From positions 1 to 40,016 of IMG/VR virus record IMGVR_UViG_3300048587_000950: a DNA stretch of 40,016 nucleotides; one strand, 5' to 3'. Made by a program: the position numbers and the translations under genes. The stretch is from a virus. Numbering within the stretch: position 1 is the stretch's first letter; each line of letters starts with the position of its first letter. The notes beneath the pieces are model-generated. The model was not told the DNA's origin. It was given only the letters and a program-made list of their open reading frames with translations, and did no database searches. Below are positions 738 through 26,092 of the stretch, piece after piece.

Positions 738-929
738 ATGCGCTGGCAAGGACCCAAAGACCACACGCGCCGCGTGCGCCGCTGGTTCGCCTGGTGGCCC
801 GTCACCATTCGCCAGGAAACCCGGTGGCTCGAGCGCGTGGCCGTGCAGCAGCAATACAGCACGTTCCTGAGCGGTGGTGGCGGGTACTGGCGCAATCAGG
901 ACTTTGTGGACGAAAGGCAGGCCACGTGA
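738..929 (+). CDS. Basic Trp/Arg-rich small protein
   Basis: 63 aa, starting at the first ATG after the short gap. It is rich in Trp (six) and Arg (W-Q-G-P-K, RRVRRWFAWWPV, RQETRW) and has a G-G-G-G-Y turn near residue 53, so it is strongly basic and aromatic. It could contact nucleic acid or membrane, but no motif supports either. No canonical ribosome binding site lies upstream. It overlaps the next gene by four bases (GTGA). Confidence 0.5.
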   Translation: MRWQGPKDHTRRVRRWFAWWPVTIRQETRWLERVAVQQQYSTFLSGGGGYWRNQDFVDERQAT

Positions 930-1189
930 CGGACCACGCAGACAACATCGCGCACCTCCTCGGTGTGGCCTACCCCAAAGTGGTGCGATACACGCGCGCG
1001 GATGGGAGCGACGTCGGCTTTTGGTTGCACAAGAACCGGCTCTTTGGGTGGTACATCAATGGTATTGACCCCACGCCGGAAGAGATGCAGGCGGCGGGGA
1101 ACACGGGTTGGGAGCCCGGGGACCACGTGCTGACCACGTGTCGGACAACCCGCGAAGCGGTGTACGCGCAGCTGGGAGGCACGCCATGA
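926..1189 (+). CDS. Tandem triplet family 1, copy 1
   Basis: 87 aa from a GTG overlapping the previous TGA. First of three adjacent paralogues with the same plan: an N-terminal helix ending in L-L-G, then P-K-V-(V/I/L)-R, a central W/G-rich beta segment (FGWYINGIDPTPE; copy 2 has RGWWVNDDDPSPE) and a C-terminal helix ending in (Q/L)LG. This copy ends A-Q-L-G-G-T-P. Overlap with copy 2 is four bases. The family is not recognised. Confidence 0.65.
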   Translation: MTDHADNIAHLLGVAYPKVVRYTRADGSDVGFWLHKNRLFGWYINGIDPTPEEMQAAGNTGWEPGDHVLTTCRTTREAVYAQLGGTP

Positions 1190-1446
1190 GCCACGTCGGC
1201 GCACTGATCCAGCTCCTGGGCGGCCAACGACCCAAGGTCATTCGCGTGCAGCACGCGTACGGCCCGCTGGGCGTGTGGTGGCACGACGGCTCGCTGCGCG
1301 GCTGGTGGGTCAACGACGACGACCCGTCGCCAGAGCACGTGCAGGCCACCGAGCCTGATCGCGGCTGGTCTGCGTACAGCCTCAATTTCGCCGACGCGAA
1401 CGTGACCTATGCCGAGCTCGTCGACCAACTTGGGGGGATCCAATGA
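1186..1446 (+). CDS. Tandem triplet family 1, copy 2
   Basis: 86 aa. N-terminus M-S-H-V-G-A-L-I-Q-L-L-G-G, then P-K-V-I-R, a G-W-W-V-N-D-D-D-P-S-P-E block and the C-terminal TYAELVDQLGGIQ. It aligns with copy 1 over its whole length and with copy 3 at both ends. The helix-LGG module occurs at both termini of the same protein. Four-base overlaps on both sides indicate coupled translation. Function unknown. Confidence 0.65.
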   Translation: MSHVGALIQLLGGQRPKVIRVQHAYGPLGVWWHDGSLRGWWVNDDDPSPEHVQATEPDRGWSAYSLNFADANVTYAELVDQLGGIQ

Positions 1447-1709
1447 GCCACGTCGATGCGGTCACCCGCCTGTTGGGTGGTACGCCCAAGGTGTTGCGGC
1501 TACCCGCGCTGGGCCCTGGGAAGATGGAGCTCGTGGCCTGGGTGCGGGACGACGGCTCGGTGCGGGGGCGGTACATCTGGTCCCACGGCACCATCGAAGG
1601 CGCTCTGGCGACCGGCGGATGGGACGCCGCCACGCATCAGCACCCCATGGAAAAGGAAGTGGGCGTGACCTACCCGGAGTTGTGCGCGCTGTTGGGGGTG
1701 CAGCCATGA
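1443..1709 (+). CDS. Tandem triplet family 1, copy 3
   Basis: 88 aa. Begins M-S-H-V-D-A-V-T-R-L-L-G-G-T-P-K-V-L-R, nearly the same opening as copy 2, and ends T-Y-P-E-L-C-A-L-L-G-V-Q-P. The centre differs: R-G-R-Y-I-W replaces the G-W-W-V-N-D block. Duplication followed by divergence is the simplest reading. Function unknown. Confidence 0.65.
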   Translation: MSHVDAVTRLLGGTPKVLRLPALGPGKMELVAWVRDDGSVRGRYIWSHGTIEGALATGGWDAATHQHPMEKEVGVTYPELCALLGVQP

Positions 1710-1855
1710 CCGACGCGCAGCGGACCAAGCTGCGCCTGCTGGCCGCCGAGTACGGGCTGGCCGCGAGCAGTGAATATGCGGTGCAAGCGCTGGTGCGTGA
1801 CGCCCTGCGCGTGGTGCCCACCTGGGCGACGGAGGTCGCGTGCAAGTCACCGTAG
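1706..1855 (+). CDS. Very small helical protein
   Basis: 49 aa, ATG overlapping the previous stop by four bases. Charged at the N-terminus (D-A-Q-R-T-K-L-R-L-L-A-A-E), then mostly helical with V-Q-A-L-V-R-D-A-L-R-V-V. It overlaps the start of the next gene by 16 bases. The coupled start and consistent overlap style support it being real; nothing indicates a function. Confidence 0.45.
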   Translation: MTDAQRTKLRLLAAEYGLAASSEYAVQALVRDALRVVPTWATEVACKSP

Positions 1856-2196
1856 TGTGTCCGCTGTGCCTGGACGACCGCGAGGCGCAGGGCATTGGGC
1901 TGTGCTGCAAGTGCGACAACGGCCGCGATCCAGTGCAATGCACGGTGCAGCCGGACTCGGCAGACGAGTGGCGGCTGCGGTTGGCGGATGTCGCCGGGCG
2001 GTATGTGCAGGCGCGGCGCATCGCAGACGATCAGACGATTGCGTACCTGCAGGCGCGGGGTACCGGCACGCTGACCGCCGAGCTGGTCGTGCGTCGGGAC
2101 GACGCGCTGCGGCAGGTCAACAAGCTCGACGCGCTGTTGTGTGGTGCCTACGACGAATGGCGGACGCGTGCCGCTGCCCCGGCAGAGCCCACCTGA
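1840..2196 (+). CDS. Zinc-ribbon-like N-terminus plus helical protein
   Basis: 118 aa, read from the GTG at 1840. Residues 7-26 contain C-P-L-C and C-C-K-C separated by about 12 residues, a classic four-cysteine metal knuckle. The remainder (L-A-D-V-A-G-R-Y, ELVVRRDDALRQVNKLDALL) is predicted helical or coiled coil. It overlaps the next gene by one base (TGATG). Small phage zinc-ribbon proteins often bind nucleic acid or protein partners, but no target is indicated. Confidence 0.6.
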   Translation: MQVTVVCPLCLDDREAQGIGLCCKCDNGRDPVQCTVQPDSADEWRLRLADVAGRYVQARRIADDQTIAYLQARGTGTLTAELVVRRDDALRQVNKLDALLCGAYDEWRTRAAAPAEPT

Positions 2197-2492: not shown

Positions 2493-2742
2493 CGTGAGAC
2501 ACACCCTGCGGTTCTGCGGAGCTGTTCTGCGCGACCTGGCCGCGGCCCTGGCGTACGTAGTCTACGGCGTATCGTGCGTGGTGTTGCTGTTCGCTGCCGG
2601 GATGACCGTTCCCGCCTGGCCCACCTGGGCGCAGCGCGCGCTGCTGGCGGCGTGCGGGATGATCGGGTTCCTCGTGCTGGTGGTGGTGATCACGGCGTAC
2701 GTCACCGACCTTTGGGCCAGGACGCGTCGCTATGGCGACTGA
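2440..2742 (+). CDS. Small membrane protein, two predicted TM helices
   Basis: About 100 aa in this reading. Two hydrophobic spans are visible: A-A-A-L-A-Y-V-V-Y-G-V-S-C-V-V-L-L-F and A-L-L-A-A-C-G-M-I-G-F-L-V-L-V-V-V, separated by a short P-A-W-P-T-W loop, so an inner-membrane hairpin is likely. The start is uncertain: GTG at 2440 follows GAGGGG by ten bases, while GTG at 2431 and 2494 are in frame. Overlaps the next gene by 11 bases. Confidence 0.55.
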   Translation: MAKKTPGISGLQQKVRANVRHTLRFCGAVLRDLAAALAYVVYGVSCVVLLFAAGMTVPAWPTWAQRALLAACGMIGFLVLVVVITAYVTDLWARTRRYGD

Positions 2743-3010
2743 CCGTCACCTGACCACGGCGGTTGCGCCCCTCGCGCCGGGTGAGTATTGGGGCACCGTG
2801 ATCGAACTCGGCCCACGCGGCGAGTTGGGCACGGTGGAAGTGTGTATCCAACGCACGTTCTCCCCGAGCGCCCGACAACTGGCCGCCTGGGCCGCGCAGG
2901 GCGTCGACCCGGAGGACCACGACGGCTACGAGTGCGTGGTGGCCGCCGAGATCGTCGGGGCCATTCAAGCCGCGGTGCACGGCATGCCCCTGCCCCGTCC
3001 TCGTCCCTGA
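2732..3010 (+). CDS. Unknown 92-aa protein
   Basis: The ATG lies inside the end of the membrane protein gene. Central beta-type segment (G-T-V-I-E-L-G-P-R-G-E-L-G-T-V-E-V-C-I) followed by helices with A-R-Q-L-A-A-W-A-A-Q-G and A-A-E-I-V-G-A-I-Q-A-A-V. The C-terminus is Pro/Arg-rich (P-L-P-R-P-R-P). It is the last gene before a 91-base gap with a hairpin, so it probably ends a translational cluster. Not recognised. Confidence 0.5.
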   Translation: MATDRHLTTAVAPLAPGEYWGTVIELGPRGELGTVEVCIQRTFSPSARQLAAWAAQGVDPEDHDGYECVVAAEIVGAIQAAVHGMPLPRPRP

Positions 3011-3030
3011 TCTTTCGTCCGACTGTCCCC

Positions 3031-3064: not shown

Positions 3065-3101
3065 GTCGCCACTCGGCCTTCCCTCTCACATTGAGTTGAC
3101 C

Positions 3102-5160: not shown

Positions 5161-5475
5161 GTGACGTTTCTGAATGCGATACACAACGCGCTCGGCACTG
5201 GACTGCGGCTGTACGTGGCAGAGTCCTACGCTCCCGAACCGCACAAGCCCGAGATGGACTGGCTGCAGAACTACGTGCTGCTGGTGGCCCCCGACATCGA
5301 GGCGGCCGCCGAGCTCGCCCGGGCCGAAGCGTCCCGCCCTGGCAGCACGCTGCAGAACGAGCCCCACGAGCCTGCGGTGACGCAGATCTGGGTCCGCGAC
5401 TTTGGCGCGCCTGCGGCGGCGGGGCTGCTTCGCGATCGTGGAACGCTGCTGGTGTGGGCCGTAGACGATGCTTGA
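5161..5475 (+). CDS. Small DpnD/PcfM-like protein
   Basis: 104 aa from GTG 5161, chosen because AGGAG lies five bases upstream. It opens with a helix M-T-F-L-N-A-I-H-N-A-L-G, the terminal module shared by many proteins here. A strand-helix unit follows: Y-V-L-L-V-A-P-D-I-E-A-A-A-E-L-A-R-A-E-A, the 'beta strand, A-x-D-x-x-x-A, helix' pattern of DpnD/PcfM-type small phage proteins. The C-terminus is a beta hairpin (L-L-V-W-A-V-D-D). Overlaps the next gene by eight bases. Confidence 0.55.
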   Translation: MTFLNAIHNALGTGLRLYVAESYAPEPHKPEMDWLQNYVLLVAPDIEAAAELARAEASRPGSTLQNEPHEPAVTQIWVRDFGAPAAAGLLRDRGTLLVWAVDDA

Positions 5476-5818
5476 CGAACTCTACGCTACGCTGGGGCTC
5501 GCTGCCCCACCGCGCGACCTGCTGGTGTTCCGCTGGAAGGGTGAGGCGCTCGAGCAGGACTGGTGCGACTACACCCTGGAACCCGGGGAGCGGCCTAGTG
5601 CCCGGGCGGACAGGACGCTGATGGCCGAAATGTTCTATCCGGTCGGGGACGGGTGGTTCGCTCCGGTGCAACGCCACCCACCGCGAGACCAGTGGAAGAT
5701 CCGGTACGGCTGCGCGCATCCGCGCGACCACCTCAATCAACAGACGATGGAGTGGACCGTGCGCTCGGTGTCGCTGCCCGAGTGGGTCCTGGACTGGGAC
5801 GGCGAGCATGCTGGCTGA
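5468..5818 (+). CDS. Tandem triplet family 2, copy 1
   Basis: 116 aa. Begins M-L-D-E-L-Y-A-T-L-G-L and has the conserved order D-x-L-x-F-(R/Q)-W/A near residue 22, a Y-x-V-G-D-G-W-F segment and a W-T-V-R-S-V-S-L-P motif followed by an aromatic tail. The following two genes share this plan. The N-terminal helix is the module seen elsewhere in the window. Function unknown; overlap of 11 bases with copy 2. Confidence 0.65.
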   Translation: MLDELYATLGLAAPPRDLLVFRWKGEALEQDWCDYTLEPGERPSARADRTLMAEMFYPVGDGWFAPVQRHPPRDQWKIRYGCAHPRDHLNQQTMEWTVRSVSLPEWVLDWDGEHAG

Positions 5819-6236
5819 ACTGTATGCGGCACTGGGCTTGCCCGTCGCCGCGCCGACGGACGTGTTGGCGTTCCGCGCGCTCGAGTCGGGCTACAAGCAC
5901 CCGCGTTGCCTTCAGGCCGACACCCGGCCGATCGACGTTCCGGCGCTCGACGGCGGAGAATACTTCGTTCCGATCGGCGAGGGGTGGTACATCATTGTGG
6001 TCGCCCATGCGCTGGTGGTCCCGCGCGACGCCGGAGTGCCGCTGGAGAACGGGTGGCTCGTGCGGTACGCGGCAGACTACCCGTCGTCCGGGATGAACAA
6101 CTACCTCTACGAGTGGGCGGCGCGTTCCGTGGTGTTGCCGGACGGCGTGCAGGTCCTGCCCACCTACTGTCTCGACGCGCCTGAGCCCTACGACGACGAC
6201 GACGACTACGACGAGGATCTCTACGATGATGACTGA
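5808..6236 (+). CDS. Tandem triplet family 2, copy 2, acidic tail
   Basis: 142 aa. Opens M-L-A-E-L-Y-A-A-L-G-L, with D-V-L-A-F-R-A, F-V-P-I-G-E-G-W-Y-I-I-V-V and W-A-A-R-S-V-V-L-P matching copy 1. It is extended by an Asp/Tyr-rich tail (P-Y-D-D-D-D-D-Y-D-E-D) written in GAC repeats near 6190-6210. The tail overlaps the start of copy 3. Acidic tails can mimic DNA or contact partners, but nothing proves that here. Confidence 0.65.
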   Translation: MLAELYAALGLPVAAPTDVLAFRALESGYKHPRCLQADTRPIDVPALDGGEYFVPIGEGWYIIVVAHALVVPRDAGVPLENGWLVRYAADYPSSGMNNYLYEWAARSVVLPDGVQVLPTYCLDAPEPYDDDDDYDEDLYDDD

Positions 6237-6576
6237 GCTCTATGCGGCGCTGGGGCTGACGGCACGATGCTGCCGCGCGCTGTGCTTTCAGTGGGATCTG
6301 GACCTGATGGAAAGCTGGACGCGGGACCGCATCTTGGGTACCGCCGACAGTCCCCCGGTTGCTGATCGCCGCAACCGCGAGCACTACCTGCTCCTGGACG
6401 ACGGGTGGCACATGGTGGTGCAATACGTCGACGGGCAATGGACGCCAAAGTTCGCGCCGACGAAAAACACGTCGACCCTCAACAAAGAGCTCTTTCAGCA
6501 GTGGACCGTGCGCACCATCCTGGCGCCTGCGGGGCTGCACGTTCCCGACGAGCACTGGAGTACCGCATGTCCCTGA
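6226..6576 (+). CDS. Tandem triplet family 2, copy 3
   Basis: 116 aa. Starts M-M-T-E-L-Y-A-A-L-G-L, with A-L-C-F-Q-W-D, L-L-L-D-D-G-W-H-M-V-V and W-T-V-R-T-I-L-A-P, the same order as copies 1 and 2. Two in-frame ATGs lie at 6226 and 6229; either could be used. Its stop lies inside the next gene. Function unknown. Confidence 0.65.
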   Translation: MMTELYAALGLTARCCRALCFQWDLDLMESWTRDRILGTADSPPVADRRNREHYLLLDDGWHMVVQYVDGQWTPKFAPTKNTSTLNKELFQQWTVRTILAPAGLHVPDEHWSTACP

Positions 6577-6944: not shown

Positions 6945-6980
6945 CCTTTCCTCTTTTACCCTGTGCTGGGAGTGCAACGC

Positions 6981-8489
6981 ATGACTGCTCGGTGGATGTA
7001 CCTGTCGGACCTGGCCCCGCAGGCCAACATCATGAACCTCGAGACCGGGGAGCTACGGTCGATCAACAGCGCCGCGGTCAAGGACCGCGCGCCGATCGGG
7101 CTCCGCCGGTACGTGCTCGAAGAATCGTCGGGCGGGTCGTACCGGGAGACCGGGGAGTGTATGCCGATGACCGAGGAGCTCTTCGCGGAGCTCGAGGACA
7201 ACATGCGGCTGCCCAACAACTGGAACTACGACTGGCCGCATCTCCAGGTGGAGATCGAGGGTGACGGCGCGGACCATCCGATCCGCCTGGCGATCCTCGA
7301 GCGCCTCAACCGCGAGATGGCCGACCACCCGTACACCTTCCAGGTGACCGGGCTGCAGCGGCGGTACTTGATGTACTTCTCCGACGGCAACTACCAGTCG
7401 CAGCAGGCGTTCGAGCGGTACGTGCCGCGTCCGGACAGCTCGCCCTTCCGGCGGGACGGCTCGCTGCGCAAGAAGTACAACTGGATCTGGAACTCGAACA
7501 TGCGGGACGCCAAGGTGCCGGTGCCCCAGACCGAGTCGAAGCTCTACGGCAACCTCGCGCCGTGCCTCTACACCGGTCCGGCGTGGGTCGTGCGGTTCCA
7601 GCTCGACGGCCAGGACCCGCTGCTCGAGCGGTGCCGCGTGTACGTCACCGACGAGGGCGAGTTCATCTGCTCCGACTGGTGCCAGCGGCACGACCAGACC
7701 AGCTACGGCGACGGCATCAACCTGCAGCGCGGGATCTACAGTTTCGGCGCCTGGGTGACCGGCCCGTGCGTGACCTTCGCGTCGGGACGAGGCGGGTTCA
7801 AGCCCACCAGCACGACCTTCACGCGTACCGCGGTCAAGGACCTGATCAAGCAGCACGGGCTGCTCCGGCCGCCGCGCGCCTTCGATGACGTCTTCGCGCA
7901 GGCCCAGAAGACCGTGGCGAGCTTCGAGTCGGTGGTCCCGGCCGGTGCGCCGAAGCTGGCGCACGACGCCGGAGACATCACGGCGGCGGCGGTGGCCGAG
8001 GCGGAAGCTGTGGCCGATGCCCGCCTGGCCGAGGTGGGGGAGACGCTGAAGCTCCCCGAGGGCGTGGTGCCGCAGTCGCTGCGCTCGGCGGGCCTGAGCC
8101 TGTCCAACTACGCGTACTTCGAGGTCGACCTGCCGAGCCACAAGTCTGGCCTGGCCTCGACGCACAAGCGCGGGGTCGTGGGCCTGAAGCTGAACCTCGA
8201 CGGCTCGGTGACGGCGGCCCTGGTGAGCAACAAGTTCGGTCTGCCCCAGGAGGCGTACGAAGCGCTGCGGGTGGCCAGCGCGAACGTTGTCCACGGCGCG
8301 TTCGCCGTCAATGCGGACTTCGTGCCGGGCGTCCCGGCCACGAACGCCTGCCCGGAGTTCTGGTACCTCGGAGACAGCGAGAAGCCGACCAAGGCGGTTG
8401 GCGTCGAGGCGCTGAAGCCGTGGTGGCTGTACGACGCGGCGGTCTACTACCGGGACGCCGTGAGCGTCCCGGCGGAGCTCGTCGGGTGA
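6981..8489 (+). CDS. Unknown 502-aa protein, optimised codons
   Basis: ATG 6981 follows GGGAG by eight bases. Third positions are almost entirely G or C, as in the gene at 4570, suggesting high expression. Visible pieces: N-W-N-Y-D-W near residue 80, Y-N-W-I-W-N-S-N-M-R-D, a C-S-D-W-C pair near residue 235, an Ala/Glu/Asp-rich helix around residues 320-355 and a C-terminal aromatic region (WWLYDAAVYYRD). No catalytic motif is evident. A structural or abundant accessory role is possible, but I do not recognise the family. Confidence 0.7.
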   Translation: MTARWMYLSDLAPQANIMNLETGELRSINSAAVKDRAPIGLRRYVLEESSGGSYRETGECMPMTEELFAELEDNMRLPNNWNYDWPHLQVEIEGDGADHPIRLAILERLNREMADHPYTFQVTGLQRRYLMYFSDGNYQSQQAFERYVPRPDSSPFRRDGSLRKKYNWIWNSNMRDAKVPVPQTESKLYGNLAPCLYTGPAWVVRFQLDGQDPLLERCRVYVTDEGEFICSDWCQRHDQTSYGDGINLQRGIYSFGAWVTGPCVTFASGRGGFKPTSTTFTRTAVKDLIKQHGLLRPPRAFDDVFAQAQKTVASFESVVPAGAPKLAHDAGDITAAAVAEAEAVADARLAEVGETLKLPEGVVPQSLRSAGLSLSNYAYFEVDLPSHKSGLASTHKRGVVGLKLNLDGSVTAALVSNKFGLPQEAYEALRVASANVVHGAFAVNADFVPGVPATNACPEFWYLGDSEKPTKAVGVEALKPWWLYDAAVYYRDAVSVPAELVG

Positions 8490-8905
8490 TGTTGTTCACC
8501 GGCACCCTCGACCGCACGATCATGGAGCACTACCCGTACGCGGCGCAGCACGCCGCGACGGGGGAGGACTTCGAGTACGGGCGCACGAAAGCCATCTCCC
8601 CCGCGCCCGTGGTCATCCGGCGGGTGTCGCTGTCGGAACGCTACGAGTGGTACCGGTGCACGCGCATGACGAGCGCGGGGGAGCCCCGGGAGGACGCCGT
8701 GATCGCCTTCGAGCCCGCCACCGGCGCTTACTGGTTCTGCGGGGGCACCTCCTCCGTACCGCACATTCCGTACACCGACCCCCGCCCGCGCAAGGAACCG
8801 CTGCGCGCGGGCTGGTGGGCCTCGATGTGCGTGGCCTGGCTGGAACAGCAACGGACCCAACCCCGAGACCTGGTCGGCGCGCTGCGCGCCGTCCTGCACG
8901 GATAA
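8489..8905 (+). CDS. WxCGG paralogue pair, copy 1
   Basis: 138 aa; ATG overlaps the previous TGA by one base. A Y-W-F-C-G-G-T-S-S motif occurs near residues 88-96, then G-W-W-A-S-M-C-V-A-W-L and a terminal helix R-D-L-V-G-A-L-R-A-V-L-H-G. The next gene has the same three blocks in the same order, so the two are duplicates. The central Cys-Gly-Gly could be structural or reactive. Function unknown. Confidence 0.65.
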   Translation: MLFTGTLDRTIMEHYPYAAQHAATGEDFEYGRTKAISPAPVVIRRVSLSERYEWYRCTRMTSAGEPREDAVIAFEPATGAYWFCGGTSSVPHIPYTDPRPRKEPLRAGWWASMCVAWLEQQRTQPRDLVGALRAVLHG

Positions 8906-8915
8906 GGAGCAGTCG

Positions 8916-9371
8916 ATGTGGACCGTCAACCTGACCGCGGACGACATTCACGACTTCCCGCTCGCGGCGCACCACGCATACATGCGGGCGACGTGGCCTG
9001 GAGTCTACGAGGACGACGACTCCCTGCCCGAGCTGGACGAAGAATTGGCCTCGCACACGATTCGTGTGCTCCAGGTGGGGACTACGGGGGACTACACGCT
9101 GTACGCGCTGGGCGAGCCGGACGACGAGTACTCGTACGGCACCGGGATCACCTGGGACCGCAAGCACGGCGTGTTCTGGTACTGCGGCGGCATTGACTGC
9201 TCCTCACCGTGGTCCGACCAAGAACTGGCGGACTACGTGGCACAGAACGCGGACGAACTGCTCGACCCGACCTGGTGGGCCGCGCTCGTCGCCGGATGGC
9301 TGCACCGGACCCACTGCGCGCCCAAGCCGACGGATCTGCTGTCGGCGTTGAACCAACTTCTTCATTCTTGA
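8916..9371 (+). CDS. WxCGG paralogue pair, copy 2
   Basis: 151 aa with an AAGGAG ribosome binding site. Shares F-W-Y-C-G-G near residue 90, T-W-W-A-A-L-V-A-G-W-L and the terminal helix T-D-L-L-S-A-L-N-Q-L-L-H-S with the preceding gene. It adds an acidic insert (E-D-D-D-S-L-P-E-L-D-E-E-L) near residue 30. Lies directly upstream of the E1-like gene, so the pair may supply substrates or partners for it; this is only suggested by position. Confidence 0.65.
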   Translation: MWTVNLTADDIHDFPLAAHHAYMRATWPGVYEDDDSLPELDEELASHTIRVLQVGTTGDYTLYALGEPDDEYSYGTGITWDRKHGVFWYCGGIDCSSPWSDQELADYVAQNADELLDPTWWAALVAGWLHRTHCAPKPTDLLSALNQLLHS

Positions 9372-9386
9372 CCCCAAGGAACTCTC

Positions 9387-10076
9387 ATGCAACTCGCACT
9401 CGTCGGCTGTGGTTTCGTCGGCTCCGTGTTCACGACCGAAATGCTGAAGCGCTGTTTCGCGGGCAAAATTCCCCTCGACTTCCACTTCATCGATGACGAC
9501 ACCGTGGAAGCGCGGAACTGCGCCAATCAGAACTTCTCCCAGGCGAACATTGGGCAGCCGAAGGCCCAGGTGATGCAAGGGTTGGCGCTCGACGCCGACC
9601 GAGCGGCCACGTACGTTGCGACGCGGCTGACGCCGGAGAACATCGACGCTCTATTGGGCGACGCCACGCTCATCGTCGACGGGGTGGACAACCTCGCCAC
9701 CCGCCAGCTGTTGTGGGGATACGGCATGCGCACGGGCACCCCGGTGCTGCACATCGGCATCACCGAGCAGGGCACCGGCAAGGTCGAGTGGACCCATCCG
9801 GCGCACCAGACCTTTTCGCTCCGCCCTGAACACACGGCGGGCAAGGACATCCCGGACCCGGCCAGCGGGGTGACCCCGCCGTGCGAGCTCGCTCGGATGC
9901 GCGGCGTGGGCCTGAACGCGGGCTTCGCGGCGGCGTGCGCCGCGGCGATCTACTTCGGGTTCGATCCCGAGAGCCACTTGAAGGGCGACACCTCGCCCGG
10001 GTGGTTGACCGAATGGCACGCCAGCCCGATGGGCTTCCTGCCGCAGACCGAAACCTGGGGGAACGTGCATGTCTGA
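9387..10076 (+). CDS. ThiF/E1-like adenylyltransferase family protein
   Basis: 229 aa, about the size of a single E1/ThiF/MoeB domain. Residues 5-11 G-C-G-F-V-G-S form the nucleotide loop. F-I-D-D-D-T-V-E-A-R-N, the Q-N-F-S-Q-A-N-I-G-Q-P-K-A block and V-D-G-V-D-N-L-A-T-R-Q match the canonical order D-x-D-x-V-x-x-x-N, Q-x-F/L, G-x-x-K-A, D-x-x-D-N-x-x-x-R. A cysteine in T-P-P-C-E-L is a candidate for the conserved Cys. ThiF-related proteins adenylate the C-terminus of ubiquitin-like proteins. Those on plasmids and phages often belong to PRTRC cassettes. Overlaps the next gene by eight bases. Confidence 0.8.
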   Translation: MQLALVGCGFVGSVFTTEMLKRCFAGKIPLDFHFIDDDTVEARNCANQNFSQANIGQPKAQVMQGLALDADRAATYVATRLTPENIDALLGDATLIVDGVDNLATRQLLWGYGMRTGTPVLHIGITEQGTGKVEWTHPAHQTFSLRPEHTAGKDIPDPASGVTPPCELARMRGVGLNAGFAAACAAAIYFGFDPESHLKGDTSPGWLTEWHASPMGFLPQTETWGNVHV

Positions 10077-11601
10077 CCTGTCCGCGGATATCAAGGGGCT
10101 GTTGTCGCCTGCCGCCAAGCCGCCCGCCTCGGCCGGAACCCCGCGCCGCTGGTGGGGCGACGGGCCGGACGACGAGGGATACTACACCCGGCAGATGTAC
10201 GGGCACGGTGTGCAGCCGCACAAGCCCACGACGCCGTACCGGCCGCAGACCACGTACGGGTCCGCAGGCTACCAGAACAGCTACGCGCCGATGCGCGTGG
10301 CGGTGGTGCACGCCGACGAGCGGGACGACCGCTACACCATTCCCTACGAGGGACGCGCGTGGTTCGCCATTGCCTCGACGGTGTGGCCCACGGTCGACAA
10401 CGTGATGCGCGTGCCGGTGGAGCACTGCCAGTTCACCTACGCGGATCCGCCGTTCAACGCGTGCGTGTTCACCGCCGCGAACGACTATCTGCAGGCCCGA
10501 TGGGGCCGCAAGATGGACCACAGCGACCAGCGGTGGTTGGCCCTGCACCCGTACGCCACCGATGGCGGCGTGCCGCAGGAGTACACCGCCACGTGCGTGC
10601 ACCAGCTGGTGGCCCCGTACGGCATGGTCGTGAGCCGTGTGCGCTTGCGCCGCGGAAGCTTGGTGCTGGGCGACTCGGTGATGGCGTGGTTGAACAGCCT
10701 GGGCTGCAACCCGTTCGCCATGGCGGACCGCAGCACGACCAACGCCGAGGCCGCCGCCAAGATGGGTATCACCCCGGCGGAAGCCGATGCGCTCTGGCGG
10801 GTGGAGTTCCATGACGATCCGCTGCCCGGCTCGATCATTGGCGAGCGCGGCTGGAGCAACCAGGCCAGCTCGTCCACTACGGGGAGTGTGGTCACCGGCA
10901 ACTTCGGTGGGCATGCCCGGTACCTGGCCCCGCGGGGTCGGGCCGGGGACTGGTTCATCTCGGTGCAGCTCGCCCCGGACGACCGGGTGGAATACTTGGT
11001 GCCGCCGCCGGACCCGGCGTACGAGCCGCGCAAGGGCAACCCGACGCTGCTGTACGGCAGTGTCACCGGACTGGACGGCCAGCCGATCGCCGTGAAGGAC
11101 GGGACCAGCTGGCGCCGGGTGGGCGATGCGCCCGCCGCCGCGGCTGGGACGGCCAGCTTGCCCACGCTTCCGGACGTGCCGAAGAAGCCCGCCGCAAGCC
11201 ACGGGCATTTGGTCACGTGCGGACTGTGCGCGGAAGACGTGAGCACCGCCGGGGTCCTGCGGGAAGCGGACGTGTGCTACGAGTGCGCGGAAGCGCTGTG
11301 GGACGGCATGGTCTGCCCCCACTGCAAGGTGAGCCTGAGGCGGCAGATCCCGTATCCGCTCACGTACAGCATCACCGACCAAGGCCTGGTCGAGGACTAC
11401 GAGTACAGCTGCAACGCCTGCCGGGAGACGATCGTGTTCCAGTCGTTGGACGCCACGCCCGAGCCGACGGAGCACGACTTCATGCTTGAGCACTATCACG
11501 AGCTGGTGTTCAACCTCGAGCCGCTGACGGACGACAAGATTGATCAGATCGTCCAGGACGAGCAGGACCAGCTCGAGTTCCCACCCACCGACCCGGCGTA
11601 A
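10069..11601 (+). CDS. Large protein with possible Cys/His catalytic domain and zinc ribbon
   Basis: 510 aa, overlapping the E1-like gene. Residues 128-140 read P-P-F-N-A-C-V-F-T-A-A-N-D-Y-L, resembling the helix bearing the nucleophile of papain-like or C39 peptidases (C132). H282 in G-G-H-A-R-Y-L, followed by W-F-I-S-V and later P-P-P-D-P, could supply the His. The C-terminal part has C-G-L-C, C-Y-E-C, C-P-H-C and C-N-A-C pairs (about residues 384-455), a two-metal zinc ribbon. A protease or deconjugase paired with E1 is an attractive but unproven idea; a zinc-binding scaffold is the alternative. Confidence 0.6.
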   Translation: MSDLSADIKGLLSPAAKPPASAGTPRRWWGDGPDDEGYYTRQMYGHGVQPHKPTTPYRPQTTYGSAGYQNSYAPMRVAVVHADERDDRYTIPYEGRAWFAIASTVWPTVDNVMRVPVEHCQFTYADPPFNACVFTAANDYLQARWGRKMDHSDQRWLALHPYATDGGVPQEYTATCVHQLVAPYGMVVSRVRLRRGSLVLGDSVMAWLNSLGCNPFAMADRSTTNAEAAAKMGITPAEADALWRVEFHDDPLPGSIIGERGWSNQASSSTTGSVVTGNFGGHARYLAPRGRAGDWFISVQLAPDDRVEYLVPPPDPAYEPRKGNPTLLYGSVTGLDGQPIAVKDGTSWRRVGDAPAAAAGTASLPTLPDVPKKPAASHGHLVTCGLCAEDVSTAGVLREADVCYECAEALWDGMVCPHCKVSLRRQIPYPLTYSITDQGLVEDYEYSCNACRETIVFQSLDATPEPTEHDFMLEHYHELVFNLEPLTDDKIDQIVQDEQDQLEFPPTDPA

Positions 11602-16085: not shown

Positions 16086-16546
16086 GCACCAAGGAATTGG
16101 TGGCGCAGCTGCTGGACGCCGGAATTGTTGCGGTGGCGTGGGACTTTGACGGCGAGGACGGCGACGGTACGATCGACGGGGTGGGCGGGTGTAGCCCCGA
16201 TGACCTGCCCCAGCCGCTCGTGCCGGGAGAACCGCACACCACCTCCGTGCGGGATCTGTACGACGGCACGGAAGGCTTGGGCAGCTTTCAGGCATCGCAG
16301 TACGGCAACGCGGTGCGTGCGCTGTGCGATGATCTGCTGGTGGCCCACTTCCCGGTGCTCTGGACCCACGGCGGCGGGACCTACGGGTACGGCGTGGTGG
16401 ACTTGCGCACCGGGGCGGTCGTGATTGAGGGGCACCAGAGGCTGGTCACAGTCGTGCCCGTGACCGCGACCACGCACGCGTCCACGGTGCACGCCCCTCC
16501 AGCGGACTTGCTCGGAGCGGTGCACCAGGCCCTGGGGTCCCCATGA
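16082..16546 (+). CDS. DUF6878-like protein, diverged copy
   Basis: 154 aa from GTG 16082. L-L-D-A-G-I-V-A-V-A-W-D-F-D-G-E-D-G-D-G-T-I-D-G opens the domain; T-H-G-G-G-T-Y-G-Y-G-V-V-D-L-R-T-G-A-V-V-I-E closes it, so the N-N-E-G part is replaced by G-G-G. Ends D-L-L-G-A-V-H-Q-A-L-G. Four-base overlaps on both sides. Confidence 0.65.
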   Translation: MSTKELVAQLLDAGIVAVAWDFDGEDGDGTIDGVGGCSPDDLPQPLVPGEPHTTSVRDLYDGTEGLGSFQASQYGNAVRALCDDLLVAHFPVLWTHGGGTYGYGVVDLRTGAVVIEGHQRLVTVVPVTATTHASTVHAPPADLLGAVHQALGSP

Positions 16547-17391
16547 CCCTCGCGCATGGACTGTGGTACGGCACGCACGGCATGCTGGTGACCAACGCGG
16601 CGGGACGCGTGCTCCCCGCGTTGTCCACGTATGACGGCCCGGCGTACGCCACGGTCGTGGCCATCGATACCACGGCGCTGCGCGCGTTGTACGCGGCGCA
16701 TGGGCGCGCGTTCACGTTCGGCGGCGACGTCTTGACGGTAGACCTGATCCACGCCGACGGCTCGCGCACTCCAGCAGAGCCGGAATGCCTGCAGGACGTG
16801 GCCACGTTCCTGGCGCAAGCGGCCGCACTACCACCACCACCACCACCACCAAAGGGCACCCCGATGTACGATCCGCACACGTGGCTTGAGACATTCAAGC
16901 TGAAGGCCGCCGCGACCAAGGCGGCGAAGCAGGCCGAACTGCGCACCGTGCAGGACGCGCTGCTGGCGGTCGGCGTGGTCGCGGTCGGCTGTGAATTCTC
17001 AGGAGGCGGCGACGAGGGGTCGATTGACACCGTGAGCCTGCTCACGACGGAGCACCTGCCCGATCCGATCACGGACGACTGCGATCTGCCCGACAGCGCA
17101 CAGACACTCGTGCAAGACGGCCTCGGCACCGACGAGGTGGCGGGCGGTCCGAGCGAGGATGCCGTGCGGGAGCTGTGCTACTTCGGACTGGAACGCTTCG
17201 ACGGGGACTGGATCAACAACGAGGGCGGCTACGGCTTCGCGCTGATGGACTTGCGCACGGGGTTCTTGATCATCGACGGCACGCAACGCACGGAATGCAG
17301 CGCCTTTACCGCGTGTCAGCTGCTTGACCCGGTGGCCGCACCCCCGCTGACGTTGGAGCAGGTGCTCCGCCAGACGCTGGGGGAAACGTGA
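16543..17391 (+). CDS. Fusion: unknown N-terminal domain, poly-Pro linker, DUF6878-like domain
   Basis: 282 aa. Residues 1-95 form a separate alpha/beta domain (G-L-W-Y-G-T-H-G-M-L-V-T-N, A-T-V-V-A-I-D-T). Then seven prolines encoded by seven CCA repeats (16831-16851), and from M108 a full DUF6878-like domain (G-V-V-A-V-G-C-E-F-S-G-G-G-D-E-G-S-I-D and W-I-N-N-E-G-G-Y-G). An ATG at 16864 preceded by AAAGGG could also start the second domain alone. The domain is closest to the gene at 15546. Confidence 0.65.
   Translation: MTLAHGLWYGTHGMLVTNAAGRVLPALSTYDGPAYATVVAIDTTALRALYAAHGRAFTFGGDVLTVDLIHADGSRTPAEPECLQDVATFLAQAAALPPPPPPPKGTPMYDPHTWLETFKLKAAATKAAKQAELRTVQDALLAVGVVAVGCEFSGGGDEGSIDTVSLLTTEHLPDPITDDCDLPDSAQTLVQDGLGTDEVAGGPSEDAVRELCYFGLERFDGDWINNEGGYGFALMDLRTGFLIIDGTQRTECSAFTACQLLDPVAAPPLTLEQVLRQTLGET
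16831..16851 (+). repeat. CCA trinucleotide repeat (7 units)
   Basis: Seven perfect CCA units encoding a proline tract at the junction between two protein domains. Changes in copy number would alter linker length without changing the frame. Confidence 0.8.
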
Positions 17392-17708
17392 GCTTGACCC
17401 GCGAGGACGTGCTGGCGCTCAGTGGACGGGTCGACGGGAGCCGCGTGCGGGTCACGGATCGATGGGGCGGCAGCACGGTCGGGTATATCGTGCACGCCAC
17501 GTCAGCGTACTTCGGACTGCGCTTCTACCAGGACTGCTACGGGAGCGACCGCTCGATCTTCTACCACGACGTGGTCCGCATCGAAGGCACGCGCAAGAAC
17601 CGGCGCGGCTACCCGCTCTATTGGGCGAAGACCGCGGTGGTCCAAGACGGCGCGGCGCTGGATCTGACCGGCACGCTGCAGAACCTGCTGGCTGGGGCGC
17701 AGTTGTGA
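17388..17708 (+). CDS. Unknown beta-rich small protein
   Basis: 106 aa from GTG 17388. R-V-R-V-T-D-R-W-G-G-S-T-V-G-Y-I-V-H and Y-H-D-V-V-R-I-E-G resemble strands of a small SH3-like barrel, and the end is the terminal helix L-T-G-T-L-Q-N-L-L-A-G. It carries the shared terminal module but not the DUF6878 core. Overlaps the next start by four bases. Confidence 0.5.
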   Translation: MSLTREDVLALSGRVDGSRVRVTDRWGGSTVGYIVHATSAYFGLRFYQDCYGSDRSIFYHDVVRIEGTRKNRRGYPLYWAKTAVVQDGAALDLTGTLQNLLAGAQL

Positions 17709-20036: not shown

Positions 20037-20243
20037 ATGCGCACCGCGCGCGCCAAGCCCACGAAGCAGTTCGAGATACGCGTCACGGAGAGCCGTGAGT
20101 ATTGGATCACGGTCGACGCGGTGGACAAGGGCGATGCACTACGGCAGGCGTGGGCGATGCAGGGGGCACTGGACCCCAACGACGCCAATGAGATCCACTT
20201 CCACAACGTCGAGTTGATACACGAAGAGGACGACGATGACTGA
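20037..20243 (+). CDS. DpnD/PcfM-like small protein
   Basis: 68 aa. F-E-I-R-V-T-E-S-R-E-Y-W-I-T-V-D-A-V-D-K-G-D-A-L-R-Q-A-W shows the strand-turn-helix signature, then H-F-H-N-V-E-L-I-H-E-E-D-D-D-D, an acidic tail. It begins directly after the previous stop and overlaps the next gene by eight bases. Confidence 0.6.
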   Translation: MRTARAKPTKQFEIRVTESREYWITVDAVDKGDALRQAWAMQGALDPNDANEIHFHNVELIHEEDDDD

Positions 20244-20556
20244 CTTGCTGACAACCATGCACGCCACCCTGGGCGGTGCCCCACCCCAGCAGGTGTGGTA
20301 CCTCGAGGCGCGTTCGGACGAATTCGACGACTACGTCTGCGAACTACCCGACCACAACGAGCGGGGCGGCTACGTGCGGATCACCATCGAGTATGAGGAC
20401 GGCACGGACGAGGCGCTGAATGCGAGCGTGGCGCTGGTGCTGAATTCCATCCACGGTGAGGAGATCGCGGAGTGCTACGGCACGCTGTCGCTGGAGCACG
20501 CGCTCGCGATGACGGGTGCTCCGGCGGTGCGGACGGTGTCCAATGGCCACACCTGA
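20236..20556 (+). CDS. AMTG-tail family, copy 3
   Basis: 106 aa. Opens with the terminal-type helix M-T-D-L-L-T-T-M-H-A-T-L-G-G-A-P-P, then beta strands (G-Y-V-R-I-T-I-E-Y-E-D-G), and ends with L-S-L-E-H-A-L-A-M-T-G-A-P. It thus carries both the helix module seen at other gene ends and the AM(A/T)G tail. Overlaps the next gene by 14 bases. Confidence 0.55.
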   Translation: MTDLLTTMHATLGGAPPQQVWYLEARSDEFDDYVCELPDHNERGGYVRITIEYEDGTDEALNASVALVLNSIHGEEIAECYGTLSLEHALAMTGAPAVRTVSNGHT

Positions 20557-21408: not shown

Positions 21409-23307
21409 GTGTCCGCTACTGATCCCCTACCCTTTGGCAAGTTCGCTGGGCGTACCCTCGCCAGTTTGGCGCAAGGCGCCGAGGGCGAGCAAGGCTACGT
21501 CCGGTGGATGGCCGCCAACTTTCGGGACGGCCCCTGGAAGCAGGCGGCCACCGACGCGTTGGCGGTACAGGTCGACGCCGAGCCGATCGCCGCCACGACC
21601 TTGCAGGTCGGGTGCGTCGACGACCGGATGGCCTGGATCGACTACCCCTACGACCCCGCGGTGACCGCCGCGCTGCGGAGCGCCATCGATGGGCTGAACT
21701 GGCACCGCGCCTCGCGCCGGTGGCTCTTCCCCCGGGCGCAGCTGCTGCGTCTGCTGGATCGCGTGCAGGCGCTGGGGCACGCGGTCGATTTGACCACGGA
21801 GGCTGCGGACGCAGTAGCGGCGGAACGCGCGCGCCGTGCGACCCTCGACACCATCCGGGCGCAGGGGTCCAGTGGACTGCAGGTGCCCACGGTGCTGCCG
21901 TTGTTTCCGTTCCAGACCGTCGGCGTCGAATTTGTCCTGGCTGCTGGGGGTCGCGCCGCAATCACGGACGAGATGGGCCTCGGCAAGACCCCGCAAGGTA
22001 TTGGCGTCTGCTTGATGCTGTCCCAGCAGCAGCAGATCGAACGCACGTTGGTCCTCTGCCCCGCGTCGCTGAAGATCAATTGGTACCGGGAGTTCCGCAA
22101 ATTCGCGGATCTCGAGGCTACGATCTGGTCCGGCAAGAAGGTCGTGGGCGACCGCACCGGGCCCGTGCATATCGTGAACTACGACATCTTCCCCCGGTTC
22201 CGGGAAGAGTTCGAGGAGCTGGGCATTGACTTGCTCATCGCCGACGAAGCCCACTACCTGAAAAACGGCGACAGCCTGCGCACCCAAGCGGTGTTCGGCG
22301 GCACCAACAAGAAGCGGAAGCGCGTGGCGCCGTTTGCGGTACCCTACGCGGTGTTGCTGACCGGCACCCCGGTGTTGAACCGGCCCGGCGAGATGTACTC
22401 GCTGCTGCACTACTTGTATCCCGATCGGTTTCCGGACTGGTACTCCTTCGCCAACCGGTACGGCGCCTTTCCGCCAGGCAACCTGCGCGGGCTGCCCAGC
22501 ACTCCGCGGAACCTGGACGAACTGCACGAGCGCACCAAGGACGTCGTGATCCGCCGCCGCAAGGCGGAGGTCATGCCGGAGCTGCCGCCGCTGCTGGTCA
22601 GCGAGCTGTACGTCGAGTTGTCCGCCACGCAGCGCAAGGCCTATCAGCGCCTGCTGGGAGACCTTGCCACCGAGTGGACCAAGGACGCCAAGGCCAAGCG
22701 TCGGCCGTCGCTGCAGCAGCTGCAAGTGCTGACCGCATTCTTGAACGAAGTCAAGCTCGTCAAGGTGCGGGAGCTGCTGGCGGAATTGCTGGCGGATGAG
22801 GGCCGACAAGTCCTGGTGTTCTGCACCCGTCTGGCTCCGCTGCAAGCGCTGCGACAAGAGCTCGGCGACCAGGCGATGTACATCGACGGCAAGATGTCCC
22901 CCACCGCGCGGATGGCAGAAGTCGACCGCTTCCAGGCGGGGTTGGCCCGCGCGGCGCTGCTGTCGATCCGGGCCGCCGGGGTCGGGTTGACCCTGACCAA
23001 CGCCGACGTGGGCATCTTCATCGACCAGGACTTTGTTCCGGCGACGCACCAGCAGGCCGAGGCCCGCGCCCACCGGTTTGGGCAGGTCAACCCCGTGAAC
23101 ATGTACTACGTGCTGGTCGACGATACGATCGACATCGACTTGCGTGCCTTGCTGGCGGAAAAGCTGCTGGTGACCAGCCAGGTCACGGACGGTATGGCCG
23201 AAGACTCGGCCCGGCTGCAGTCGGTCTTCACCGACTTCGTGCGCCGCTTGCGCGCGCGCTACACCCAATTTGCCGAGGTCTTGGACCCGGGAGACAATGA
23301 TGACTGA
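21409..23307 (+). CDS. SNF2/HARP-type DNA helicase/translocase
   Basis: 632 aa from GTG 21409, chosen because GGAG lies five bases upstream. An N-terminal L-P-F-G-K-F-A-G-R-T-L segment resembles the short domain of PF12843-type proteins, then a HARP-like region. D-E-M-G-L-G-K-T (187-194, Walker A), D-E-A-H (279-282, Walker B), L-L-T-G-T-P-V-L-N-R (motif III) and Q-A-E-A-R-A-H-R-F-G-Q (motif VI) are all intact. SNF2 proteins of this kind use ATP to anneal or remodel DNA forks. Phage copies are common in large genomes. Overlaps the next gene. Confidence 0.9.
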   Translation: MSATDPLPFGKFAGRTLASLAQGAEGEQGYVRWMAANFRDGPWKQAATDALAVQVDAEPIAATTLQVGCVDDRMAWIDYPYDPAVTAALRSAIDGLNWHRASRRWLFPRAQLLRLLDRVQALGHAVDLTTEAADAVAAERARRATLDTIRAQGSSGLQVPTVLPLFPFQTVGVEFVLAAGGRAAITDEMGLGKTPQGIGVCLMLSQQQQIERTLVLCPASLKINWYREFRKFADLEATIWSGKKVVGDRTGPVHIVNYDIFPRFREEFEELGIDLLIADEAHYLKNGDSLRTQAVFGGTNKKRKRVAPFAVPYAVLLTGTPVLNRPGEMYSLLHYLYPDRFPDWYSFANRYGAFPPGNLRGLPSTPRNLDELHERTKDVVIRRRKAEVMPELPPLLVSELYVELSATQRKAYQRLLGDLATEWTKDAKAKRRPSLQQLQVLTAFLNEVKLVKVRELLAELLADEGRQVLVFCTRLAPLQALRQELGDQAMYIDGKMSPTARMAEVDRFQAGLARAALLSIRAAGVGLTLTNADVGIFIDQDFVPATHQQAEARAHRFGQVNPVNMYYVLVDDTIDIDLRALLAEKLLVTSQVTDGMAEDSARLQSVFTDFVRRLRARYTQFAEVLDPGDNDD

Positions 23308-23638
23308 TCTGGTCCAGGCGGTGAGCAACGCCCTGAACCCCAAGCCGGTCGAGCGCCTGCGCTCGTTCCGCATGAGTGTGGTCGGGGAGCTCTGCTTCAC
23401 GGTGTACGCCAAGAACGCCGACGATGCGGTTACGCAGGGAGAGCGCGTGCTGGAATACTTGGACGACATCGATCTGATGCCGCCGGTGTCGCTGTCTCCA
23501 GCCGACGCCGCTGCGTATGGCCTGAACCCATGCGCCATGCACCTTATGGCGTATCACGCTCCGTACACGGAGCCTGTCGTCGCGGAGTACAACCCGGATG
23601 ACGACTGGACTGAGGACGACTGGGAGGTTTTCCCATGA
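23300..23638 (+). CDS. DpnD/PcfM-like protein with N-terminal helix module
   Basis: 112 aa from ATG 23300 (23297 also possible; GGGAG lies six bases before 23300). T-D-L-V-Q-A-V-S-N-A-L-N is the shared terminal helix; R-M-S-V-V-G-E-L-C-F-T-V-Y-A-K-N-A-D-D-A-V-T-Q-G is the strand-turn-helix DpnD signature. Acidic C-terminus (D-D-D-W-T-E-D-D-W). Paralogues at 24437 and 25419. Confidence 0.6.
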   Translation: MTDLVQAVSNALNPKPVERLRSFRMSVVGELCFTVYAKNADDAVTQGERVLEYLDDIDLMPPVSLSPADAAAYGLNPCAMHLMAYHAPYTEPVVAEYNPDDDWTEDDWEVFP

Positions 23639-24748: not shown

Positions 24749-24762
24749 CCCCCGAGCTGCCT

Positions 24763-25047
24763 ATGGAGGTCCGACTAGGACCCCGCGCGTCTGCCGAGCT
24801 GGACGCCCTCCCAATGCGTGAACAGAAAGCTTTCCGCAAAGTCATGGAACGCTTTCGTGGTGCCCCGCCGGACGCGCGGCGGCAGATGCTCACAGCGATG
24901 TACGCGCCTGCTTTTCGCGACCGCGGGGTGACGCACGCCATTCGCCTGAACCGGAAGTACCGGATTCTGGTCGGGCGTGCGGACGACACGTATGTCGTGG
25001 AAGGCGTGGTTTCTCGCGGCGACAGCCGCTTCTACCGATCGGAGTAA
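24763..25047 (+). CDS. RelE/HigB-like protein (putative toxin fold)
   Basis: 94 aa. L-G-P-R-A-S-A-E-L-D-A-L-P-M-R-E-Q-K-A-F-R-K-V is the typical N-terminal helix pair of RelE/ParE folds, and A-I-R-L-N-R-K-Y-R-I-L-V-G-R-A followed by V-V-E-G-V-V-S-R-G-D-S-R-F-Y supplies the basic C-terminal strands. RelE relatives cleave mRNA on ribosomes or target gyrase. No antitoxin is evident next door; the downstream 78-aa gene is not an obvious HTH antitoxin, so it may be a solitary accessory protein. Confidence 0.6.
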   Translation: MEVRLGPRASAELDALPMREQKAFRKVMERFRGAPPDARRQMLTAMYAPAFRDRGVTHAIRLNRKYRILVGRADDTYVVEGVVSRGDSRFYRSE

Positions 25048-25049
25048 GT

Positions 25050-25286
25050 ATGGAAGCACCCGCCCACGCCCCCAATGTTGGGGGGACGCTACTGGTGTGT
25101 TGGACCAACGCGGCCCTTGGTCCGGGAGACGAAGCCACGGACCACTACGAAGTATTCCGCTGGGATCACCCCCAACACGAGCTCGAGCAGGTGGTCGCCG
25201 CCCAGGCGCGGTACCAAGCATTGGTGCAAGCTGGGGCCACGATCGTGTCCTTGGCGCGCGTCGAGCGCTCCACCGACTACCCGTGA
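25050..25286 (+). CDS. Unknown 78-aa protein
   Basis: Two bases after the RelE-like stop. G-T-L-L-V-C-W-T-N-A-A-L, H-Y-E-V-F-R-W-D-H-P and E-Q-V-V-A-A-Q-A-R-Y-Q-A-L-V form strands then a helix. It could be the partner of the RelE-like protein, but it has no recognisable antitoxin motif. Four-base overlap downstream. Confidence 0.45.
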   Translation: MEAPAHAPNVGGTLLVCWTNAALGPGDEATDHYEVFRWDHPQHELEQVVAAQARYQALVQAGATIVSLARVERSTDYP

Positions 25287-25438
25287 GCCCGCCGGGTGAG
25301 CACCCTGTCCACACCCGAATGCGGTGGTCGATGAGCATTTGCTGCGGCGGCCCCTGGATGCTGTACGCCGAGTGGGTCGCCGTCCAACAACACGCCGCGC
25401 TGATCGCGCAGGGGAACTATGTCGGACCTCGTAGCTGA
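25283..25438 (+). CDS. 51-aa small protein
   Basis: GTG overlapping the previous TGA. S-I-C-C-G-G-P-W-M-L-Y-A-E-W-V-A-V-Q-Q-H contains a C-C-G-G-P turn. The frame runs into the next gene by 20 bases. Function unknown. Confidence 0.35.
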   Translation: MSPPGEHPVHTRMRWSMSICCGGPWMLYAEWVAVQQHAALIAQGNYVGPRS

Positions 25439-25733
25439 AGTGACTGCCGCGCTCGGGCAGCTGAAGCGCATGTGCTACCGAGCGGAGATCCCGGCGTCTG
25501 TGTTTGTGGACGTGTGGGCGACTTCCGTCGACGACGCCTTTGCGCAGGCTCGCGGGCTGGGGAGCATTCTGCATGACGTCTGGAACCCAAGCTTGGTAGA
25601 GACCGATCCCGAGTACACCGCGGCGGAAGGCGTGCATTCGCCGGTACTCAACGCCGTGGTAGTGCCTGCCGACAACCCTGCGCAGCATGAGATCGTCCTC
25701 ACGTACACCGCCGCGTACATCGGAGAGCTGTAA
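25419..25733 (+). CDS. DpnD/PcfM-like protein with N-terminal helix module
   Basis: 104 aa. S-D-L-V-A-E-V-T-A-A-L-G is the shared terminal helix; A-S-V-F-V-D-V-W-A-T-S-V-D-D-A-F-A-Q-A-R-G is the strand-turn-helix signature. Closely parallels the genes at 23300 and 24437. The stop and next start share TAATG. Confidence 0.6.
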   Translation: MSDLVAEVTAALGQLKRMCYRAEIPASVFVDVWATSVDDAFAQARGLGSILHDVWNPSLVETDPEYTAAEGVHSPVLNAVVVPADNPAQHEIVLTYTAAYIGEL

Positions 25734-26092
25734 TGCTTGAATACAACGTCTGGTCTGAGTGCCACGATCTCGACGAATGGTTCGGGGACCCCGCGGACGC
25801 TGAGGCGGCCTACCATATCCACCGCCTCAGCGGGCAGTGGACTGAGGTCCGGTTGACGGCCTACGCCCTGGACGCCAATGGGGATGTCGACACGAGCCGG
25901 TGGCTGCGTCTGCACCCTGGCGTGCCCGATGTGACGGCGGCGCAGTTGGCAACAGTGGTCGGACATTGGAACGAATTCCCTGCCCACCCACGCGCAACGT
26001 GGAAAGCGCGGGTCGCGGACGACTCCACCAGGGTGGGCTACTGGGACTGGGTCGCCAACCAATTGGAGGGCGCATGGCTTTTACCCTCGTAG
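25733..26092 (+). CDS. ArdA-like DNA-mimic candidate or unknown acidic protein
   Basis: 119 aa. W-S-E-C-H-D-L-D-E-W-F-G-D-P-A-D-A-E-A-A-Y, then a strand and W-L-R-L-H-P-G-V-P-D-V-T-A-A-Q-L, with N-E-F-P-A-H-P-R-A-T-W. The D-x-x-E-W/F-G pattern and acidity recall ArdA-type proteins, but the length is shorter and no diagnostic motif is clear, so this is only a suggestion. Overlaps the next gene by 19 bases. Confidence 0.4.
   Translation: MLEYNVWSECHDLDEWFGDPADAEAAYHIHRLSGQWTEVRLTAYALDANGDVDTSRWLRLHPGVPDVTAAQLATVVGHWNEFPAHPRATWKARVADDSTRVGYWDWVANQLEGAWLLPS

Follow-up and report, generated by a model that had tools for sequence, protein, structure and literature searches.

A short helix at the ends of unrelated phage proteins

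The virus record IMGVR_UViG_3300048587_000950 is a 40,016-base stretch of DNA, analyzed here over its whole length and referred to as the window. Its plus strand carries 50 genes starting before base 26,100, and at one end or the other of small proteins encoded there, from several unrelated families, we found a peptide of 9–11 residues with the approximate pattern (D/T/N)-L-(L/V)-x-(A/T)-(L/V/I)-x-x-(L/T/A/V)-L-(G/Q/H), hereafter the tag. Proteins are named below by the first base of their genes. The terminal tag is real, and several of the placements listed for it in an earlier model-made reading of the sequence (the first-pass annotation) are weak.

The 20 residues at each end of these 50 proteins were searched de novo for motifs, with gene starts taken from the first-pass annotation or set by us; the motif sought was the one recruiting the most unrelated families, each family being scored by a model built without it. 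The top motif was the tag of the first-pass annotation, and it recruited nine families, compared with 3–7 in 200 shuffles and 3–6 in 100 sets of internal segments. At four further width and threshold settings, with 60 shuffles each, the result agreed. When possibly related families were merged, eight families remained, and seven were seen once in 200 shuffles; when C-termini possibly holding the ribosome site of the next gene were dropped, seven families remained, compared with at most six in 200 shuffles. These stricter counts include the C-terminus of 3377 and the N-termini of 14586 and 11696, which we do not call tags. With the family-left-out models and a threshold of 7 bits, which 0.83% of 3150 internal 20-residue windows pass as background, 16 ends in 15 of the 50 proteins were recovered. 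Among 60 late or other proteins, two ends passed (26773 at its C-terminus, with 10.7 bits, and 42591 at its N-terminus, with 8.0 bits), both of which we judge to be chance matches, and late-region termini with curated gene calls recruited five families. Pairwise comparison of the termini gave a modest excess, with 109 pairs scoring at least 20 against 63–84 in six shuffles and 65–96 in six internal sets; the best-scoring pair consisted of two acidic tails.

Several results, together with the limits given below for the tag measurements, the tags outside the window, and the partner, weigh against this conclusion. Two expectation-maximization searches missed the tag, the real sets scoring inside or near the shuffles and below the internal controls; we judge these searches to have been overfitted, and in one of them the internal segments taken from short proteins overlapped. 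When the genes came from a crude caller, six families were recruited from the window, inside the range of its 11 shuffles (4–6), and 22 other chunks scored 4–8. Of the latter, two phage chunks reached 8, where their own 11 shuffles reached 7 at most, and a T4 chunk reached 7, with 6 as the highest of its 11 shuffles, so the family count can give false positives. Finally, the tags of the ELYA family, 1443, and 1186 were weak with family-left-out models.

Placement of the tag in the window

At least 20 tagged proteins had been listed in the first-pass annotation, and the genes and tags were found where it had placed them, several of the placements being weak (Table 1). From its 11 C-termini, the family-left-out models recovered nine at 7 bits (8489, 8916, 14120, 14586, 15058, 15546, 16082, 16543, and 17388) and did not recover 1186 and 1443; the tag claimed for both ends of 1186 was not upheld, its C-terminus scoring −0.3 bits with the 9-residue model described next. 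From its nine N-termini, the same models recovered five (1186, 5161, 20236, 23300, and 25419), and those of 5468, 5808, 6226, and 1443 were recovered only by an earlier 9-residue group-left-out model, which was seeded from the first-pass list and also used to score placements. The proteins reaching 7 bits are small ones without assigned function. The ThiF-like protein 9387, the thymidylate synthase 12187 (Pfam Thy1), and the helicase 21403 all scored below 7 bits, as did 18152 and 18378, which by inspection appear to be membrane-bound. The tagged end is fixed within each family, being the C-terminus in the DUF6878-like and WxCGG proteins and the N-terminus in the ELYA family and in 23300/25419.

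Table 1. Positions and scores of the tags in the window (family-left-out model where no model is named)
Tagged end	Gene	Tag	Strand	Score (bits)	Model	Remarks
N	1186–1446	1192–1221	+	7.3	family-left-out	weak
N	1443–1709	1449–1478	+	10.2	9-residue	below 7 family-left-out; weak
C	2732–3010	2948–2980	+	9.4		followed by MPLPRPRP; absent from first-pass list
N	5161–5475	5164–5196	+	19.3	family-left-out	
N	5468–5818	5468–5497	+	16.6	9-residue	ELYA family; below 7 family-left-out
N	5808–6236	5808–5837	+	13.8	9-residue	ELYA family; below 7 family-left-out
N	6226–6576	6229–6255	+	9.2	9-residue	ELYA family; below 7 family-left-out
C	8489–8905	8867–8899	+	19.1		WxCGG pair; next ribosome site beyond stop
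C	8916–9371	9333–9365	+	16.9		WxCGG pair; next ribosome site beyond stop
C	14120–14593	14546–14578	+	18.9		DUF6878-like by alignment
C	14586–15044	15009–15041	+	12.0		DUF6878-like by alignment
C	15058–15549	15514–15546	+	12.1		DUF6878-like by alignment
C	15546–16085	16044–16076	+	7.1		DUF6878; AlphaFold2 helix on linker
C	16082–16546	16505–16537	+	22.5		DUF6878, below Pfam cut-off
C	16543–17391	17350–17382	+	10.3		DUF6878
C	17388–17708	17661–17693	+	14.9		
N	20236–20556	20242–20274	+	17.5		
N	23300–23638	23306–23338	+	12.8		
N	25419–25733	25425–25457	+	15.5		

Anatomy of the tag and the cores that carry it

In 32 collected tags, position 1 was D, T, N, or S in 27 cases, a composition suggesting that it is likely a helix cap; positions 2, 6, and 10 were non-polar in 91–94%, and positions 4, 7, and 8 were variable, polar or small. 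The helical hydrophobic moment at 100 degrees was 0.411, compared with 0.240 (standard deviation 0.020) for shuffled tags, although both the moment and the consensus were measured on tags picked partly for that pattern. Proline accounted for 18% of the residues before C-terminal tags and 16% of those after N-terminal tags against 5.7% overall, an approximately threefold enrichment on the core side. The AlphaFold2 model of 15546, built from six sequences (mean predicted local distance difference test score, pLDDT, 78), shows a folded core, a linker at residues 160–166 with pLDDT below 50, and a helix at residues 168–176 with pLDDT of about 55. That of the ELYA protein 5468 (mean pLDDT 72, five models ranging from 72 to 35) shows a helix at residues 2–9 with pLDDT of about 62, followed by coil and the core. 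For the DUF6878-like 15546, the disordered linker contradicts the possibility, raised in the first-pass annotation, that the helix is a buried part of the fold; the model of 5468 gives no decision on this point for the ELYA family. The tag is a capped amphipathic helix of 9–11 residues on a proline-rich tether at either end of the protein.

Two of the core labels in the first-pass annotation fared differently. The DUF6878-like label (Pfam PF21798, cut-off 24.3 bits) held above the cut-off for 15546 (38.1 bits) and 16543 (42.5 bits), 16082 fell below it (21.4 bits), and 15058, 14586, and 14120 had no Pfam match and are DUF6878-like by our alignment only. The DpnD-like label, with an E-value of 0.014, was below the cut-off and belonged to the untagged 19851; hhalign gave a probability of 1.5% for an untagged DpnD-like sister group of 23300/25419/24437, and we do not claim this link. 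DUF6878 proteins of alphaproteobacterial plasmids share the core of the tagged 15546 and 16543 and, weakly, that of 16082, but all seven of those compared (chosen from 165 records) end soon after the last strand, without linker or tag, whereas all seven phage proteins, three of which we assign by alignment alone, continue into both. Our literature search found nothing on DUF6878.

Tagged proteins outside the window

The window is contained, from base 3067 on, in a 93.5-kb record, and the overlap of the two differs at 65 of 36,950 bases, every one within the last 85 bases. A third record (L155) shares 56.7 kb with the joined sequence, at 99.996%, and extends it by approximately 28 kb. On it lie eight genes, each about 90 codons long, with consecutive four-base overlaps (L155:675–2863), and a ninth at L155:3204–3527; by eye, the tag closes all nine proteins, as in PPTFLDHLQAVLQ, APRDLLSAVQAVLQ, and CRDLLSTLHHTLGVAHAD, and eight of the nine C-termini reached 7 bits. 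The record belongs to the same phage as the window, and with the 15 in the window, 23 proteins of this one phage reached the threshold. The members of the eight-gene array are 21–38% identical to the first member, suggesting a diverging family whose function is not assigned, and the two array proteins that were scanned had no Pfam match. Between two of the tagged genes, at L155:2860–3204, lies a SLOG-family protein (Pfam YAcAr, E-value 2e−20) that is itself untagged.

In a related phage, a DUF6878 protein ends in PLDVTTVLRSTLGIT, compared with PLTLEQVLRQTLGET in 16543, the two proteins being approximately 30% identical in their cores, and the next gene, in the position of 17388, encodes a protein ending in DMPSIIRAVLTTPR; the kinship of the latter to 17388 is by gene position only, as sequence search found nothing. 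Taking these two with the nine from the array region, the family-left-out models placed 10 out of 11 external C-termini at 7 bits or above. A model built from the window tags alone recovered four of the 11 at 8 bits and six at 5 bits, against a background of 1.1% and 5.1% of shuffled ends, respectively, and none of 449 internal windows. Because the nine array-region proteins are paralogs, these eleven C-termini are not independent events.

Origin of the likeness

Identical residues in the tags of unrelated proteins were encoded by the same codon in 220 of 496 cases (209.6 expected from usage); the corresponding figures were 43 of 100 (44.4 expected) for paralogs in the window and 62 of 119 (52.7 expected) for the array tags, the last being a slight excess. 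The likeness of the tags is old or convergent, and it is held at the peptide level, not at the DNA level. The first-pass annotation had suggested module shuffling in the course of tandem duplication. A recent event of this kind, with one DNA module passed around, would draw on the tandem paralog arrays that are present and on the slight codon excess in the array tags; however, codon sharing between unrelated tags is no greater than usage predicts, the window paralogs show no excess, and the tagged end is fixed within each family, and we regard this origin as very improbable. An ancient transfer of the module, followed by selection, is possible.

The likeness of the C-terminal tags might also arise as a by-product of the ribosome-binding site of the next gene, given that the last G or GG of C-terminal tags sits in a Shine-Dalgarno-like stretch where genes overlap, and that Q-E-V or L-G-G/E codons there hold GGAGG- or GGGG-like stretches. 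However, the C-terminal tags of 8489, 8916, 14586, 17388, and 2732, which have no overlapping next gene, score 9.4–19.1 bits, N-terminal tags exist, and the motif persists without the C-termini concerned (seven families, as above). Such coding is largely refuted as a general cause, to which we give the least credence of all the explanations considered, and it may have shaped the last residues, such as G, GG, or QE, of some C-terminal tags. The LGG endings that the first-pass annotation had pointed out are no evidence of a ubiquitin-like tail, because the codons of the final G or GG lie in the Shine-Dalgarno-like stretch; di-glycine is not a general feature either, with only 926 and 1186 showing LGG among the C-terminal tags listed, and ubiquitin-like tails were rejected.

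The phage, its relatives, and neighboring genes

Gene content suggests a tailed phage. A DNA polymerase and a DnaB-like helicase were found with PHROGs, a portal candidate matched Pfam below the cut-off, and a terminase-like protein, without a Pfam match, was named by inspection. The terminase-like protein is present in two uncultured relatives, at 79% and 77%, and had no relative in the phage collection, against which megablast of window positions 1–25000 gave no match. In the alignment search with the helicase, one true relative was found among the best 80 matches listed and the other 79 were at 36% or less, as were all of the best 80 listed for the DNA polymerase; the helicase searched singly matched only itself. 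The 510-amino-acid protein found only itself in viral contigs, nothing in phages, and one 32-residue stretch in genomes. Queries A1 and A2 likewise found only themselves in viral contigs, A1 found nothing in genomes, A7 found nothing in 16 other large records, and 15546 and 5468 had no relative in phages. Fold searches gave a best E-value of 0.062 in PDB with Foldseek, a DUF6878 phage protein at 1.4e−3 in BFVD, and best Z scores of 4.2 and 2.7 with VIA-align.

Several neighboring genes were recorded in passing. At window positions 6963–11601, the ThiF/E1-like 9387 (Pfam E-value 3.9e−17, with weak matches to E1-E2 defense models) is flanked by two proteins of about 505 amino acids (508 and 510) without family matches. 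The small protein at 24763–25047 resembles a RelE/HigB-type toxin by inspection, with no Pfam match at 0.01. Two integrase-family genes occur in the one phage, at window positions 28015–28992 and at L010:10–1194 (minus strand) of another record. The ribonucleotide reductase gene at 34753–37758 has a probable intein at 35884–36903 that matches a LAGLIDADG endonuclease (E-value 2.8e−7); this stretch is missing from both related phages, and the reading frame spans 1001 amino acids here against 669 in one relative.

Comparable systems and possible roles of the tag

Microcompartment encapsulation peptides are built alike, with a terminal amphipathic helix joined to the cargo by a disordered linker (PMC12339742); in our phage, the amphipathic character is seen in the helical moment given above, for tags chosen partly by their pattern, and the disordered linker in one predicted structure (15546, residues 160–166). 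Those peptides have about 18 residues, compared with 9–11 in the tag (PMC12339742), and no microcompartment shell domain turned up in Pfam scans that covered part of the phage's proteins. In P1, the 30 N-terminal residues of DarB direct a reporter to the capsid (PMC9024508). The tag would share with DarB a terminal stretch (9–30 residues across the two systems) that directs a protein to a phage capsid; DarB is, however, a single large protein with an N-terminal signal, and the likeness is one of description. The internal proteins of T-even phages are highly diverse, with only the capsid targeting sequence conserved, and those of T4 resemble the tagged set in having just a terminal targeting sequence in common (PMC3012670). 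The T4 ip genes, like the tagged genes, sit among early genes. Their targeting sequence is N-terminal (MKTYQEFIAEA in ipII and ipIII, MKTFKEFTS in ipI), whereas our tag differs, does not match it, and is often C-terminal. Encapsulin cargo-loading peptides are short peptides that load cargo into an HK97-fold shell, and we liken them to the tag by description only. In listings of the literature, we found no description of such a shared tag, which is unusual in the number of families carrying it and in its use of both protein ends.

A signal for docking into a common groove looks like this: the capped helix is short, keeps one non-polar face conserved, and hangs on a flexible tether at either end of the protein. 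The first-pass annotation had proposed a docking peptide or a targeting tag, and this proposal is supported by one AlphaFold2 model, in which a linker of low confidence carries the helix, by the proline-rich tethers, by the absence of the tag from the seven plasmid DUF6878 proteins, and by its presence in the related phage. We consider it somewhat better than an even chance that the tag is an address on unrelated small cores for one putative shared partner. No such partner was found, which counts against the reading, and its binding is something that we only infer.

Other readings account for part of these observations. The tags might bind each other without any receptor, so that the proteins co-assemble into a cluster or condensate; the build shared with microcompartment encapsulation peptides, which bundle and condense cargo (PMC12339742), and the single conserved non-polar face favor this, but the tags are shorter than those peptides typically are, the present data do not separate self-binding from a receptor, and we think it unlikely. 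Less likely still is that the helices belong to the normal fold of each protein and are alike by chance: short amphipathic helices occur widely, the ELYA model sets its helix beside the core, and the 1186 and 1443 cases are weak, but the motif is enriched at termini and not in internal windows, the linker of 15546 is disordered, and the seven plasmid proteins have no such helix. A degradation or adaptor signal, read by a host or phage protease that would set protein lifetime, is a slightly poorer candidate again; in principle, a degron could take the form of a short peptide at the ends of many unrelated proteins, but a tethered capped helix that is conserved and used at either end would suit docking better.

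Under the docking reading, the conserved non-polar face would fit a groove on the shared partner, which would gather the fast-diverging tagged proteins in one place. The partner may be a soluble hub. In the version that we favor, it would be the phage scaffold or the inner side of the procapsid, with the tagged proteins serving as virion cargo delivered on infection, like the T4 internal proteins and P1 DarB; because T-even internal proteins and DarB use capsid-targeting ends, the capsid or scaffold is the leading candidate, although as yet a tentative one. The phage would then possess a sorting system in which one address helix, at either end, gathers small proteins into a single structure, most likely the virion, and a new cargo protein would need just a core and the tag; this broader view is conceivable, with the odds against it. 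If it is true, sequence alone would reveal which phage proteins without assigned function act together, and the tag would provide a handle for fishing out the partner and perhaps for loading foreign proteins. Comparing the ends of unrelated proteins within one genome would then be a general route to hidden address codes in uncultured phages.

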